The notes under the pieces are model-generated. The model was not told the origin of the DNA. It saw only the letters and a list, made by a program, of their open reading frames with translations, and ran no database searches. A stretch of 64,000 bases of DNA from Mesotoga prima MesG1.Ag.4.2 (GTDB lineage Bacteria > Thermotogota > Thermotogae > Petrotogales > Kosmotogaceae), in the NCBI RefSeq assembly GCF_000147715.2, contig NC_017934.1, positions 248,001-312,000 on the forward strand, read 5' to 3'. Position 1 is the first letter of the stretch, and every line of letters begins with the position of its first letter. Below, in pieces: positions 10,156 to 52,360 of the stretch. The translations under genes and the position numbers were made by a program.

Positions 10156-10187
10156 AAAAAAAAGAGGGCTAGTTCTAGCCCTCTTTT
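10156..10187. terminator. Bidirectional intrinsic terminator
   Basis: The hairpin arms AGAGGGCTAG and CTAGCCCTCT are flanked by an A-run and a T-run, so it should work for both convergent genes (ending at 10128 on plus and 10204 on minus). Confidence 0.9.
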
Positions 10188-46090: not shown

Positions 46091-46237
46091 CTATATGAAG
46101 CCAAATACAAGGAATCCTATTAGGAATCCGATTATCAGTCCTACAATCAATCCTCTTGAGAACCTGTCGGTTCCTCGGGGTGGTGTTCTTTCCTGATTTT
46201 GGCTTTCTTTATACCAGTCTCTATCGTAGATTCCCAA
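46091..46237 (-). CDS. Possible 48-residue small membrane protein overlapping the permease gene
   Basis: A TTG at 46237 lies about 10 nt after GAAAGGAG, directly after an in-frame stop. It encodes a charged N-terminal half (MGIYDRDWYKE, then RTPPRGTDRF) followed by one very regular glycine-spaced TM helix, GLIVGLIIGFLIGFLVFGFI, ending at a TAG at 46091. The first ~90 nt overlap the 3' end of the AI-2E-family gene in another frame; the TM part lies in the free space before the terminator. The helix pattern and binding site favour a real gene, translationally coupled to the permease. The function is unknown. Confidence 0.5.
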   Translation of the reverse strand: MGIYDRDWYKESQNQERTPPRGTDRFSRGLIVGLIIGFLIGFLVFGFI

Positions 46238-47238
46238 TTACTACCACTCCTTTCACTGAGAATGAAATCCATCCAGTACCTCTTTATGAATATCAGGATT
46301 GGAACTGCAAAAACAACGCCAAAGACGCCCAGCAGTTCGCCAAACCCTATTATCGATACCAGCACGATGAACCAGTTAATCTTAACTCTGTTCGAGAGAA
46401 TTTTTGGCGACAGGAACCAGATCTCCATCTGGTTGGCGATGACCAGCAAGACGATGGCTCCAACAACCCCCCAAAGCCCTTTGCTTACGAAAGAAAGCAC
46501 GATCATCGGAATCGATGTAACAACCACGCCAAGATACGGGACAAAATTAGTGATTCCCGCCAGCAAACCGAGGAATATCGCATTCGGGATACCGAGAATG
46601 GCCGATCCGATAGCGATTATTGTTCCAACAACAAGAGCAATTATCAGCTGGCCGCCAATGTAGGTCTGAAAATCCTTGTACAATGAATGAAAAAAGCTGC
46701 TCACCTTGTCCTGATCACAACCGGGAAAGAGCACGGGCACGCTTTTCTGGATCATATTGGTCTTTCTTGCGACCACAAAACCCGCAATAATCAGCAAGAC
46801 AACACCTGTAATCCATGAAGTGATGTTTGAGGCAACGTATTGCCCAATCATGATTGCTGCATCACTCAACCACTGGGATGCGCTCTCGACTATGTCGACT
46901 ATCGCTTCAGAAATGAATGGGGGAAGCTTCTCCAGCCACTTGTCGAATGTACCGCCATTGAAAAGAGAATCCAGCTCCAACGAAAGGCCTTTCACACCAC
47001 TGATGGTTATTGGGACTACTCTGTAGATAAGGAAGAACATAAACGATAGAAGAGCTATGCCGGTTACTATGCTTAGGGCTCCCCTAGGGATCTTTCTACT
47101 GACAAATTGAGCCGGTGTGTTGATAATTAGCGAAAATATAAAGGCCAGTCCGAGAACCCTTGAGGTCGTAGGAAAGAGAAAGAGTGTCATGAACACTGCT
47201 ATGAAATATCCAAGAACCCAGAACTTTGTTTTCTTCAT
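46147..47238 (-). CDS. AI-2E family (PerM/YdbI-like) transporter
   Basis: 363 residues with about eight TM helices and the family segments FVPYLGVVVTSIPMIVLSFVSKGLWG and PKILSNRVKINWFIVLVSIIGFGELLGVFGVVFAVPILIFIKRYW. Members export autoinducer-2 in E. coli (TqsA) or act as ion antiporters elsewhere, so the substrate is uncertain. The ATG start follows GGTGGAGGG. The end overlaps a possible small membrane protein gene. Confidence 0.88.
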   Translation of the reverse strand: MKKTKFWVLGYFIAVFMTLFLFPTTSRVLGLAFIFSLIINTPAQFVSRKIPRGALSIVTGIALLSFMFFLIYRVVPITISGVKGLSLELDSLFNGGTFDKWLEKLPPFISEAIVDIVESASQWLSDAAIMIGQYVASNITSWITGVVLLIIAGFVVARKTNMIQKSVPVLFPGCDQDKVSSFFHSLYKDFQTYIGGQLIIALVVGTIIAIGSAILGIPNAIFLGLLAGITNFVPYLGVVVTSIPMIVLSFVSKGLWGVVGAIVLLVIANQMEIWFLSPKILSNRVKINWFIVLVSIIGFGELLGVFGVVFAVPILIFIKRYWMDFILSERSGSNWESTIETGIKKAKIRKEHHPEEPTGSQED

Positions 47239-48030: not shown

Positions 48031-48582
48031 CTATGAAAGAAGTTTGGCTATTTCGTCTACTTCCTTTTCGTCAGGCATCTCACCATCAACTGCCATTTCC
48101 ATGATTTTGCCTGCTATGTAAGATAGAAGACGATGAGACACTTTGGAAGCACGTCTCATTGACATTGAAGATCCTAGCGCTCTCTCTAATCTATCGTAGA
48201 AGTCGGCCCTCGCATTGATAAGGATCTCCCTCACTCTTTTGTTCTTCATTCCGTGAAGCCAGAGATATACAAGAGAAACCATTATATCTGGCCTTTCAGA
48301 ATAGAGCTTCAACAGTTCTGCGTAAAGATCTCTTGTAATCTCTACAGGCTGTTTGCCTTGGTCGATGAGTGGTTCGATTCTCGGCAGGACGTAGTTGTTG
48401 AGAATATGCCTTGATAGATCGATTAGCATTCCCTCTTTCGAACGGTGGTGATAGTGAATAGCCGCAAGGTTCACTTCTGCTATCCCTGAAACCTTACGTG
48501 TGCTCAGGCCTTCGATCGTTTCTTCAGCGATGACCTGTATAGCAGCCTCCATTATTCTCTCTCTTGTTTCTTGACCGCGCAC
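48031..48582 (-). CDS. TetR-family transcriptional regulator
   Basis: About 183 residues. The GTG at 48582 is chosen because AAAGGAGTG lies just upstream; the longer TTG start at 48600 precedes that site. The N-terminal helix-turn-helix reads TRERIMEAAIQVIAEETIEGLSTRKVSGIAEVNLAAIHYHHRSKEGML, the TetR plan. The ligand domain (residues ~70-183) is not recognised. It has its own promoter. The targets are unknown; the divergent or adjacent transport genes are possible. Confidence 0.9.
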   Translation of the reverse strand: MRGQETRERIMEAAIQVIAEETIEGLSTRKVSGIAEVNLAAIHYHHRSKEGMLIDLSRHILNNYVLPRIEPLIDQGKQPVEITRDLYAELLKLYSERPDIMVSLVYLWLHGMKNKRVREILINARADFYDRLERALGSSMSMRRASKVSHRLLSYIAGKIMEMAVDGEMPDEKEVDEIAKLLS

Positions 48583-48617
48583 TGTCGTCACTCCTTTCAA
48601 TCATTCGTATAACACAG

Positions 48618-48676: not shown

Positions 48677-49615
48677 CTATGCAACGATTCTTGTACCCGA
48701 CTCTCCTTTGAGCGCGAGATCTACATTTTCCAGAGAAGTAATGATCGCTTCCTTTCCGGTTAGAGAGACAAATTCGATTGCGGATTCTATCTTTGGCAAC
48801 ATGCTTCCCTTAGCAAAGTGACCGGCTTCCATCAACTCTCTTCCTTCTTTTACAGTCAATTCCTTCAGTTCCCTCTGGTTGTCTTTTCCAAAGTTTATGT
48901 ACGCGTAGTCTACTCCTGTAAGGATAACAAGTGCGTCCGCTTCAATTAACTTCGCCAGCAGGGCAGAAGCTCTGTCTTTGTCAATGACGGCTTCGACGCC
49001 TTTAATTTGTCCCGATTCGTCTCTGACCACCGGTATTCCACCGCCGCCAGCCGCCACGACGATGGTGCCGTCCTTTATCATCTCCCTAATAGGTTCGATT
49101 TCAAGAACGTCAAGGGGCATAGGTGAAGGCACTACACGTCGATAACCTCTTCCGGCATCTTCTTTGACGGTCCAGCCTTTGGTTCTCTCGAGTTCTTTGG
49201 CCGTCTCACTATCATAAAACGGTCCGACGGGTTTGGAAGGATTCTCGAAACCCTTGTCGTTCTTGTCCACAACTATCTGAGTCAGAACGCACGCGATATT
49301 CTTTCTTGTGTTTCTCTTGACAAGTTCATTGTTCAAAGTCTGGGTTATCAAGTAACCAATTGAACCCTGTGTCATTGCATCGTTTACGTCGATCGGAAAG
49401 GGAGGGAAAACGTCCTTCGCTATATCCTGCTGAACAAGGAGATTTCCAACCTGCGGTCCATTGCCATGAGTAATTACAAGCTCGTAACCTTCCTCTACCA
49501 GATCTGCAAGATAGGCAGTCGTCGAGAGCAGGTTCTTCTCCATAACTTCTGCTGTGGGTTTTTCGTTTGGTTTGTTGAGCGCGTTGCCGCCTATTGCAAC
49601 TACGATTCTCTTCAT
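48677..49615 (-). CDS. arcC: Carbamate kinase
   Basis: 312 residues, amino-acid-kinase fold. It opens RIVVAIGGNALNKP and contains ITHGNGPQVGNL, VVAAGGGGIPVV, VIDKDRASALLAKLI and LVILTGVDYAYINFGK. It converts carbamoyl phosphate and ADP to ATP, ammonia and CO2. It starts 8 nt after the ornithine carbamoyltransferase stop. The pair can ferment citrulline to ornithine with ATP gain. No arginine deiminase gene is in the window. Confidence 0.95.
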   Translation of the reverse strand: MKRIVVAIGGNALNKPNEKPTAEVMEKNLLSTTAYLADLVEEGYELVITHGNGPQVGNLLVQQDIAKDVFPPFPIDVNDAMTQGSIGYLITQTLNNELVKRNTRKNIACVLTQIVVDKNDKGFENPSKPVGPFYDSETAKELERTKGWTVKEDAGRGYRRVVPSPMPLDVLEIEPIREMIKDGTIVVAAGGGGIPVVRDESGQIKGVEAVIDKDRASALLAKLIEADALVILTGVDYAYINFGKDNQRELKELTVKEGRELMEAGHFAKGSMLPKIESAIEFVSLTGKEAIITSLENVDLALKGESGTRIVA

Positions 49616-49623
49616 ACTTCCCC

Positions 49624-50565
49624 CTATAGCAGTGTGGCTATCATTACTGCTTTTATTGTATGTTTTCTGTTCTCGGCTTCCTCGAAGACTCTAGAGGCAG
49701 GACTTTCGAAGACATCTTCGGTTACTTCATTTCCCTTCACGGCAGGCAGACAGTGAAGGAAGATAGTCTCTGCCTTTCCGGTCTTTTTCATCATCTCAGC
49801 GTTAACCTGATAAGGTTTAAGCAGAGCAATCCTTTCTTGAAGCTTGTCCTCTTCACCCATCGATGCCCAGACGTCTGTATAGACTGCATCGGCGTCCTTT
49901 AGTGCAGAGTCGACATCTTCAGTGACCTCGACCGTAGCTCCGGATTGTTTTGCGATCTCTTTGCACTTGCTGACAATAGCCGGATCGGTGTGAAGTCTCT
50001 CCGGACCGCACGCTACGAAATGCAACCCCATCTTCGCGGACCCTATCATGAGGGAGTTGGCCATGTTGTTTCTGGAATCCCCCACAAAGACCAGCTTTCG
50101 TCCTTTCAGGCTGCCGAGGCTTTCTTCGATAGTCATGAAATCCGCAAGAATTTGGGTTGGATGGTATAGGTCGGTAAGCCCGTTATAGACAGGAACGCCA
50201 GACCACTGCGCCAGAACTTCAACAGTCTCTTGCTTGAAGCCCCTGAACGCTATCGCATCGAACATTCTTCCTAGTACTCTTGCCGTGTCTTTCAAATCCT
50301 CTTTCACTCCAAGATGAATATCGTCCTTTGAGAGAAAGACCGCATGGCCGCCCTCTTCACCGAAGGAAGTTTCGAAAGCAGTTCTTGTCCTTGTTGAGCG
50401 CTTCTCAAATACAATGGCAAGCGTTCTCCCTGCAAATCTACTCGTCGGTGTACCGGCCCTCTTTTCGACCTTCACCTGTCTTGCAATATCCAGTAGATAG
50501 CGAATCTCGTCTGTCGTGAAATCAAGCAGTGTCAAAAAGCTCTTTCCTTTAAGGTTTACGCCCAT
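49624..50565 (-). CDS. argF: Ornithine carbamoyltransferase
   Basis: 313 residues. The carbamoyl-phosphate loop FEKRSTRTRTAFE, the HPTQILADFMTI segment and HCLPAVKGNEV with the active-site Cys are all present, as is the ornithine-binding WASMGEE. It acts either way between ornithine plus carbamoyl phosphate and citrulline. Coupling to carbamate kinase suggests the catabolic direction (arcB-like), which sequence alone does not settle. The ATG follows AAGGAGGG. Its promoter and a palindrome lie upstream. Confidence 0.95.
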   Translation of the reverse strand: MGVNLKGKSFLTLLDFTTDEIRYLLDIARQVKVEKRAGTPTSRFAGRTLAIVFEKRSTRTRTAFETSFGEEGGHAVFLSKDDIHLGVKEDLKDTARVLGRMFDAIAFRGFKQETVEVLAQWSGVPVYNGLTDLYHPTQILADFMTIEESLGSLKGRKLVFVGDSRNNMANSLMIGSAKMGLHFVACGPERLHTDPAIVSKCKEIAKQSGATVEVTEDVDSALKDADAVYTDVWASMGEEDKLQERIALLKPYQVNAEMMKKTGKAETIFLHCLPAVKGNEVTEDVFESPASRVFEEAENRKHTIKAVMIATLL

Positions 50566-50596: not shown

Positions 50597-50625
50597 ATAA
50601 TACATATATAAGACTATGCTTTCAA
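50597..50625 (-). promoter_or_regulatory. Promoter of the argF-arcC operon
   Basis: On the minus strand: TTGAAA (50625-50620), a 17-bp spacer, TATTAT (50602-50597). Confidence 0.6.
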
Positions 50626-50626
50626 T

Positions 50627-50652
50627 TGCGTTTATTCGTACGAGGAAACGCA
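50627..50652. promoter_or_regulatory. 26-bp near-perfect palindrome, candidate operator between argF-arcC and argS
   Basis: The outer arms TGCGTTT and AAACGCA surround a central TTCGTACGA-type palindrome. Eleven of 13 symmetric pairs match, and one of the two exceptions is T-G. It ends one base upstream of the argF -35. That position suits an activator of argF or a shared regulator of both divergent units. Confidence 0.55.
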
Positions 50653-50728
50653 GATTAAACCATATCACAACAATGCGGTGTTATGCTTTTGTATGCTAAG
50701 GTATATTGGCCAGATTAGGAGGTGGATT

Positions 50729-52360
50729 GTGTTTAAGGAGAAGCTGGAGAACTCAATAAAGAAAGTGCTGGAGGAATTTGACATTTATGATGACAAAATC
50801 GATTTTAAGGTTGAGATACCTCCTGAGGGGTTTGGTGATCTTTCTACAAATGCCGCGTTTATTCTTTCGAGGATCCTGAAGAAGAGCCCGAGAGAAATCG
50901 CTAATATAATCTGCGACAGACTCGGCAACGAAGCCGACTATAGCAGAGTGGAGGTTGCCGGACCAGGATTCATAAACGTTGATTTCTCCATTACATATCT
51001 ATCCTCTGTACTGGCGGAGTTGATCGATGCGCCGGATTTCTGGAAGAGAAAGGGCGATACGAGAATTCAGTTTGAATTTGCAAGCGCCAACCCAACGGGT
51101 CCCTTTACAGTCGGTCATGGGCGCCAGGCAGTATTTGGAGATGTTCTGTGTCGAGTCTTTTCATGTAGAGGGTACGGCGTTCACAGAGAGATGTACATAA
51201 ATGACGCGGGAAGGCAGATTGGACTCCTGGGCCGCTCTTTGTGGGTTAGATACAATCAATACCTCGGTGTAGAAGAGGAGCTACCTGAGGATGGCTATCA
51301 GGGTGAGTATTTGATCGATATTGCCAGGGGACTTGCCGGTGAGATCGGAGAGCGTTTCAAGGCGGTTTGGAACTCAGAGGCCGAAGCTTTTTTCAAGAAA
51401 TATGCTCTCGACAAGATGCTGGAAGATATTATGGGAACACTCAAGAGGCTGAGAGTGGAGTTTGATAACGTCTTCTTTGAGAGCTCTCTGATAGACGATG
51501 GAACTGTTGACTCCGTAATTGGCATGCTTGAAAGAAAAGAGTTGATATATGAATCGGAAGGGGCGAGGTGGCTTAAAGTCTCAAACTTTGTGGAGGATGA
51601 TGATAAGGTCCTCGTGAGATCGAACGGAAGCTATACTTACTTCATGACCGACATTGCTTATCATTACAATAAGCACGATAGGGGTTTCAAAAAGGTATTT
51701 GATATCTGGGGTGCGGATCACATGGGCCACATTCCTAGGATGAATGCTGCTATGAAGGCCCTGGGAATAGAAGATGGATTTCTGAATGTGATTGTCCATC
51801 AGTACGTAAATCTCAAAAGAGAGGGTGAAGTGGTAAAGATGTCGACCAGAAGAGGGGAATTCACAACCTTGGATGAGCTAGTTGAAGCTGTTGGAGTGGA
51901 TTCGACGAGATACTTCTTCGCGATGTTCGATCCTGACACTCACATGCTTTTTGACATAGATCTGGCAAGGCAGAGATCGAATGACAATCCTGTCTTTTAC
52001 GTCCAGTATGCCAACGCAAGAATAAGCAATGTATTCAGAACTGCTAAGGAGAAGAACGTGAAAAGATCGAGAGATTCGCTTGAGCTTCTCGATTCTCAGG
52101 AAGACAGGAGGATCATCAAGCTGCTGACGATTTTCCCTGAGATTTTGGATTCGGTAGTCGCAGATTACAGAACAAACCGTCTAACGTCTTATCTGGAGGA
52201 TCTGTCCAGGGCATTTCACGGTTACTACAACAAGAATATCATTGTAGACCCGGAGAACCCGGCACTTTCAGGTGCAAGGTTAGCTTTGTGCGAAGCGATT
52301 CAGAACATTTTAAGGAGCGGATTAGAGCTTCTTGGCGTTGAGGCTCCCGATAGTATGTAA
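50729..52360 (+). CDS. argS: Arginyl-tRNA synthetase
   Basis: 543 residues. The GTG at 50729 follows AGGAGGTGG; the longer frame to 50678 begins before that site. It has an N-terminal ADD1-like domain, then NPTGPFTVGHGRQAVFGD, where the class I HxGH motif reads T127-V-G-H130. The KMSKS loop is K370-MSTRR, as in many ArgRS. The C-terminal anticodon-binding DALR domain includes ADYRTNRLTSYLEDLSRAFHGYYNK. It charges tRNA-Arg. The stop overlaps the rlmD start by one base (TAATG). Confidence 0.96.
   Translation: MFKEKLENSIKKVLEEFDIYDDKIDFKVEIPPEGFGDLSTNAAFILSRILKKSPREIANIICDRLGNEADYSRVEVAGPGFINVDFSITYLSSVLAELIDAPDFWKRKGDTRIQFEFASANPTGPFTVGHGRQAVFGDVLCRVFSCRGYGVHREMYINDAGRQIGLLGRSLWVRYNQYLGVEEELPEDGYQGEYLIDIARGLAGEIGERFKAVWNSEAEAFFKKYALDKMLEDIMGTLKRLRVEFDNVFFESSLIDDGTVDSVIGMLERKELIYESEGARWLKVSNFVEDDDKVLVRSNGSYTYFMTDIAYHYNKHDRGFKKVFDIWGADHMGHIPRMNAAMKALGIEDGFLNVIVHQYVNLKREGEVVKMSTRRGEFTTLDELVEAVGVDSTRYFFAMFDPDTHMLFDIDLARQRSNDNPVFYVQYANARISNVFRTAKEKNVKRSRDSLELLDSQEDRRIIKLLTIFPEILDSVVADYRTNRLTSYLEDLSRAFHGYYNKNIIVDPENPALSGARLALCEAIQNILRSGLELLGVEAPDSM

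Follow-up and report, generated by a model that had tools for sequence, protein, structure and literature searches.

Introduction

Several described regulatory systems share part of their design with the locus analysed here, in which a tandem array of GCATA units lies upstream of the argF gene of Mesotoga prima. ArgR/AhrC, which is present in T. maritima, regulates arginine genes, as is proposed below for the array, but ARG boxes are palindromes of about 18 bp, whereas the array is built of direct-repeat units. Activators of the CRP type (class I and class II) act at a fixed promoter phase from more than one standard distance, and the array likewise keeps a fixed helical phase at more than one standard distance; CRP sites, however, are palindromes, whereas the array consists of direct repeats in two orientations and in two distance ranges. 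TetR-type proteins also bind palindromes. Direct repeats are bound by members of the OmpR/PhoB family, among them PhoP and the ArcA and CpxR proteins of E. coli, and no member of this family is known to read GCATAC with N4.

In PMC4832192, 7-bp repeats with a 4-bp spacer, placed at roughly one helical turn, are described as binding sites, and direct-repeat binding appears also in PMC5859096, according to which BldC occupies a variable number of direct repeats as a cooperative multimer, on 9-bp units of the form AATTXXXX(C). With the OmpR/PhoB type the array shares direct repeats one helical turn apart, its tandem repeats having a period of 10 bp. With BldC it shares the variable number of direct repeats, but its 10-bp GCATA units differ from the 9-bp units of BldC.

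Gene order and promoters of the argF locus

The window, i.e. the whole stretch of 64,000 nt (64 kb) that was analysed, belongs to a genome of 2.98 Mb (label G000). In it, argF, arcC and a TetR-family gene follow one another on the minus strand, and argS lies divergently on the plus strand, separated from argF by a gap of 163 nt. The argS start codon, GTG, was assigned on the basis of its ribosome-binding site. No match to known RNAs was obtained in the 64-kb window at the gathering scores of Rfam. The features of the locus are as follows.

48031–48600, minus strand: TetR-family regulator gene, downstream of arcC (PF00440, 26.5 bits, cut-off 24)
48677–49615, minus strand: arcC, carbamate kinase (TIGR00746, 421 bits, cut-off 358)
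49624–50565, minus strand: argF/arcB, ornithine carbamoyltransferase (TIGR00658, 430 bits, cut-off 281)
50597–50602, minus strand: predicted −10 of the argF promoter, TATTAT, spacer of 17
50620–50625, minus strand: predicted −35 of the argF promoter, TTGAAA
50627–50652, no strand: imperfect 26-bp palindrome, 11 of 13 pairs, the site of the original prediction, not conserved within the genus
50672–50676, minus strand: unit 3 of the array, degenerate (GCATT)
50682–50686, minus strand: GCATA unit 2, the proximal exact unit, its 5′ end 84 nt from the 5′ end of the argF −10
50692–50696, minus strand: GCATA unit 1 of the 10-bp array
50702–50706, minus strand: weak upstream unit, ATATA, in the same 10-bp register
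50729–52360, plus strand: argS, arginine–tRNA ligase (TIGR00456, 421 bits, cut-off 262)

Erosion of the palindrome within the genus

The original prediction had concerned the palindrome (TGCGTTTATTCGTACGAGGAAACGCA), taken to be the site of a regulator other than ArgR. As a description it was accurate: the element is 26 bp long with 11 of 13 symmetric pairs matching, the outer seven perfectly, and a single base (50626) separates it from the −35 of argF. It is also unlike an ARG box, as had been stated, when compared with the ARG-box consensus. The proposed genome search, in which arms and centre were held constant and at most three mismatches tolerated, returned one occurrence in the own genome, and the same pattern was present in two of the 38 genomes of the order, the own genome and G014. 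Palindromes of 26 bp with at least 11 of 13 matching pairs occur at five places in the window, the four further ones at 10161, 21769, 46052 and 47963, and zero to two times in each of ten first-order Markov shuffles (mean 0.8). About one such palindrome is expected per 64-kb window by chance, and only 0.002 in one gap of 163 nt.

Conservation was assessed in seven of the ten same-genus genomes, all with the same argF/argS order; G007 and G013 were left out since they gave no argF match at the limit used, and G008 since its contig begins 33 nt upstream of argF. In the seven aligned gaps the palindrome retains 11, 11, 7, 7, 7, 3 and 2 of its 13 pairs, and 10 of its 26 columns are invariant (mean identity 0.66), including GTTTC inside the left arm (argF strand), which is invariant in all seven genomes. 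Absence of the site from close relatives with the same gene order, named beforehand as evidence against the prediction, is thus what the same-genus alignment gave, and with 7, 7, 7, 3 and 2 pairs left in five genomes the proposal that the palindrome is the regulator's site was not supported. The palindrome was rejected as a conserved operator on this alignment. It is probably not the regulatory element of the gap; its variation looks like ordinary drift, and most likely it arose by chance in this lineage, within a spacer that is poorly conserved.

A conserved array of GCATA units in the gap

The conserved and probably functional element of the gap, a well-supported candidate operator, is the GCATA array, which lies about 20 bases from the palindrome. 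On the argF strand its units follow one another head to tail with a 10-bp spacing. Across the seven aligned same-genus gaps, 34 of the 38 columns of the array block are invariant, with a mean identity of 0.96. The weak upstream unit at 50702–50706 reads ACATA instead of ATATA in G014, G006 and G009. When the full window was scanned, arrays were found in the argF/argS gap only, and 20 shuffled windows gave one match in total. Tandem units of this kind are common to the sequences upstream of argF in genera g3, g5 and g9, which otherwise differ.

The array overlaps the predicted argS promoter, the hexamers of which are weak, and argS may be affected by it. That one regulator controls argF-arcC and argS jointly is no more than possible: the array keeps its phase with the promoter of argF, and in g9 the gene divergent from argF beside the array is not argS but a different one, of unassigned family.

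Distribution of the array in Thermotogota

Genomes were searched with the three-unit pattern GCATA-N5-GCATA-N5-GCATA, allowing at most one mismatch and using the reversed pattern as control. Within the order, 21 of 38 genomes had three-unit arrays, and the reversed control matched nowhere. In the phylum they were found in 53 of 103 Thermotogota genomes and 17 of 38 genera, leaving 50 genomes without one, and the 142 matches, in which each overlapping register is counted separately and a longer array than three units thus contributes several times, compare with eight for the reversed pattern. A stricter two-unit pattern with C as the sixth base was present in 49 of the 103 genomes and absent from G000, the own second unit of which continues with A. 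When two mismatches were allowed, all ten same-genus genomes matched, but nine of them also gave some control matches. The 77 distinct arrays comprise two to five units with a 10-bp period, and the base after GCATA, which was not fixed in the search, is C in 0.77 of 214 units.

Matches inside or at the end of genes (G016 C12, G025 1796815, G049, G078 C6 and G088) are probably due to chance. The loci read amount to 30 loci and sets of 17, 31, 20 and 11 stretches; array places outside them include G016 C135, G023 C11, G075 C54, G077, G079 C3, and G083 C14 and C39. Among titles and opening parts of abstracts covered by a literature search, no earlier description of the GCATA motif was found.

No array was present in the argF upstream region of G003, G004 and G005. 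G004 keeps the argF-arcC-tetR order and the divergent argS despite its array-free argF. These argF genes and the 50 genomes without a three-unit array weigh against the operator reading given below. Genus g4 has an argF without array, yet G004 and G005 carry an array at a cDPGS-like gene, which we read as one target having been lost or rewired in this genus.

Genes behind the arrays

Selected target genes were named by Pfam and NCBIfam models, and the remainder by resemblance to those. The array precedes argF, alone or together with arcC, and in genus g9 arcA with a basic amino acid antiporter, which scored above the cut-off for the basic amino acid subfamily and below that for the arginine-ornithine antiporter. 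Arrays also lie at the divergent arcA/argF pair of G078 and G079. In G016, G027, G067, G081, G083 and G084 the array precedes the gene for 2,4-diaminopentanoate dehydrogenase with ortA, ortB or oraE genes, and an ord operon with an array is found in the window's own genome as well (C1:1315650). In G068 (L135), a gene for an IS110-type transposase lies between the array and ord, and probably cuts the ord operon off from it.

Further targets are ornithine aminotransferase (rocD) in family f8, and in the same family glutamate dehydrogenase, with an upstream array of two units only. In family f9, an array occupies the intergenic region that separates dnaA from a divergent unit of M55 peptidase, phosphate butyryltransferase-like and carbamate-kinase-like genes (L129, L132, L136 and L150; in L136 dnaA is outside the stretch read), and an array also precedes a PEPCK-like gene. 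A dipeptidase gene with a YfcC-like antiporter (G025) and a 2Fe-2S and FAD dehydrogenase pair (G006 and G009) are preceded by arrays too. The commonest target is the cDPGS-like gene, with 63 of 135 array-gene pairs, repeats included; the label was given for partial similarity to a single solved structure (9sxb, E-value 4.7e-9, residues 215–330). This gene (L098:6772–8124 and homologues) adjoins argF in L140, L141, L142 and L197, and its product may belong to arginine catabolism. The common theme of the targets is the route from arginine over citrulline to ornithine together with ornithine fermentation, a theme which the PEPCK-like, dipeptidase and dehydrogenase genes fit less directly.

Helical phase between arrays and predicted promoters

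For each array-gene pair, the best sigma-70-like promoter between the array and the start codon was predicted. The 125 pairs were reduced to 54 non-redundant ones by similarity, with 10 argS pairs left out; the ord loci of the 11 stretches read separately stand outside the 54. Locus L194, which has two opposed arrays, and L140 were entered in both orientations, L194 for both of its genes. A promoter above threshold was predicted for 49 of the 54 pairs, the five below threshold being three opposite-strand pairs of family f7 (none, +33 and +33), a pair with glutamate dehydrogenase (+114) and a pair with rocD (+68).

For arrays on the same strand as the gene, the distance from where the proximal unit starts to the −10 is mostly 74, 84, 94 or 104 nt; for argF in the window, it is 84 nt. 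Proximal units start 74–116 nt upstream of the −10 in 34 of 36 cases. The distance modulo 10 is 4 (25 pairs), 5 (6), 6 (4) or 2 (1), that is 4–6 in 35 of 36, with a vector length R of 0.89 which was reached by none of 500 spacer shuffles. Opposite-strand arrays are mostly at +33 or +43 from the −10, with distances modulo 10 of 3 (8 pairs), 2 (3), 4 (1) and 7 (1), i.e. 2–4 in 12 of 13, and a vector length R of 0.80 reached by six of 314 usable shuffles. The opposite-strand entries of L194 (+122 and +132) represent a gene paired with its neighbour's array, its own same-strand array being at +94 or +104. Related sequences are not independent in these statistics. The same phase, however, is kept across different genes and bacterial families, which are unlikely to share a promoter by descent.

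Against a fixed phase stand five ord promoters of the window's genus, the best-scoring −10 of which falls at residues 7, 7, 7, 4 and 1; a weaker TA[GC][TG]AT, noted only afterwards, is at +94 in all five. For two ord arrays of family f9 the best promoters, at +36 and +42, also depart from the range seen at most arrays. On the whole, the fixed helical phase to the predicted −10 suggests an activator.

Candidate regulators

The ArgR DNA-binding family (PF01316) was detected in none of the 38 genomes of the order, while nine of 14 controls matched, eight of them over the cut-off and T. maritima included. In the phylum, ArgR was above the cut-off in eight of 103 Thermotogota genomes (genera g34 and g35), none of which has a three-unit array, and sub-threshold PF01316 matches were obtained in five more genomes, of which four carry arrays or array-like pairs, so that ArgR in a strongly diverged form may still occur there. 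ArgR acting at an ARG box was rejected, as PF01316 was not found in the 38 genomes and the conserved element consists of direct repeats. A regulator other than ArgR at this locus, as put forward in the original prediction, is therefore probable, although the palindrome is not supported as its site. In genus g9, without detected ArgR, TGAA-N6-TTCA palindromes that are ARG-box-like by eye lie beside the arrays (L102, L104, L088 and L107).

The OmpR-type DNA-binding domain (PF00486) is present in 102 of the 103 genomes. One OmpR-type regulator, at least 67% identical among nine sampled genomes, is encoded two genes away from the array of rocD in G057 (L126), and occurs also in G071 and G090, both without a three-unit array. 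Among the regulators of 20 stretches and one more from L101, which are only part of those in the 103 genomes, no array-specific OmpR-type regulator was singled out. An array regulator of the OmpR type is possible. HTH_17 (PF12728), which we take as a proxy for BldC (MerR-like) and excisionases, was not found at an E-value of 0.001 in the array carriers G000, G004, G005, G007, G009, G013, G014, G021 and G024; a BldC-like binder was rejected since no such protein was found in the window's genome.

Other candidates observed near arrays are a Crp/FNR gene close to arcA in G078 and G079 (L194 and L195), and, in genus g30, a KaiC-type ATPase with a small HTH protein (TIGR03879 in L140), which immediately precede the array that serves the cDPGS-like gene (L140, L141 and L197). 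A response regulator gene is located about 2.6 kb from arcC in G002 (L101).

Discussion

The array, its conservation, its recurrence, its phase to promoters and the lack of detectable ArgR in the order were all computed from genome sequences. Taken together, the conserved block, the recurrence before catabolic genes, the promoter phase and the order without detectable ArgR point to the array as the operator of a regulator of arginine and ornithine breakdown. We infer that several subunits would probably bind side by side and head to tail on one face of the helix, and that the bound protein would probably activate the argF-arcC promoter, since at argF, as at the majority of the other targets, the units lie upstream of the predicted −10 and keep a constant helical phase to it. 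The signal would be arginine or ornithine. That the array is the operator of an activator of arginine/ornithine catabolism, bound head to tail, is in our judgement likely. With clearly less confidence, and about evenly poised if slightly on the doubtful side, we suggest that amino-acid fermentation throughout the phylum Thermotogota could be under an activator which would polymerise on GCATAC repeats in head-to-tail fashion. It would switch on the genes of arginine deiminase and ornithine degradation, and others linked to them, in either of two mirror-image arrangements (on the same strand mostly 74–104 nt and on the opposite strand mostly 33–43 nt upstream of the −10), replacing ArgR where it is absent.

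The palindrome invites two further explanations. It could be the operator of the TetR protein encoded after arcC, which would then autoregulate an argF-arcC-tetR unit; the position of tetR downstream of arcC in the same direction, the binding of palindromes by TetR-type proteins and the intact palindrome of the own genome and G014 are all consistent with this. In the DNA-binding domain of the protein, however, 24 of 26 residues (31–56) are invariant across the genus, in which it was found in nine of ten genomes, while five of the seven aligned genomes have only 7, 7, 7, 3 and 2 pairs of the palindrome left, and as the site decays so fast beside a nearly invariant domain, the TetR protein is unlikely to read it. 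In addition, tetR is unlinked from argF in G002, about 99 kb away beside a gene for an AI-2E transporter. Such a gene follows tetR in the window too, and in G004, where ParA-like genes intervene, so that the TetR–AI-2E transporter linkage is seen in three genera (window 48031–48600 and 46147–47238; L114 and L100); with the BetI and RefZ models, the TetR protein scores far under the respective cut-offs. The TetR protein is on these grounds disfavoured as the partner of the palindrome, and we consider this explanation very improbable. No more credible is a composite site in which the palindrome serves together with the array in this lineage only: both lie in the same 163-nt gap and GTTTC of the left arm is invariant, but pairing is reduced in five of the seven aligned genomes, and with no second copy of the palindrome in the genome the other array loci do without it.

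Concerning the array itself, a protein bound to it might repress, the catabolic genes being released with arginine or ornithine. Two observations suit repression, namely the overlap with the weak predicted argS promoter and the opposite-strand arrays, which end only 33–43 nt from the −10, near the −35, a position from which a bound protein might obstruct polymerase. The same-strand arrays, at 74–116 nt upstream of the −10 in 34 of 36 cases, would not block RNA polymerase directly, and tight helical phase at such a distance upstream is typical of activators; repression is thus unlikely, though worth considering. An intrinsic DNA bend or spacing element without a specific regulator would agree with the strict 10-bp periodicity in phase with the promoter, but the prevalence of C at the unfixed base after GCATA and the restriction of arrays to one metabolic theme fit recognition by a protein better, which makes this reading highly improbable.

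If the array is indeed the operator of an activator of arginine and ornithine catabolism, it would supply a ready-made regulon (arginine deiminase, ornithine fermentation, and the nodes of glutamate and PEP) in a phylum on whose amino-acid regulation the literature searched offered little, and would suggest how members without detectable ArgR control arginine breakdown. The array would also be a defined bait with which to fish out the regulator, and it would point to a pathway role for the uncharacterised cDPGS-like gene, its commonest carrier.
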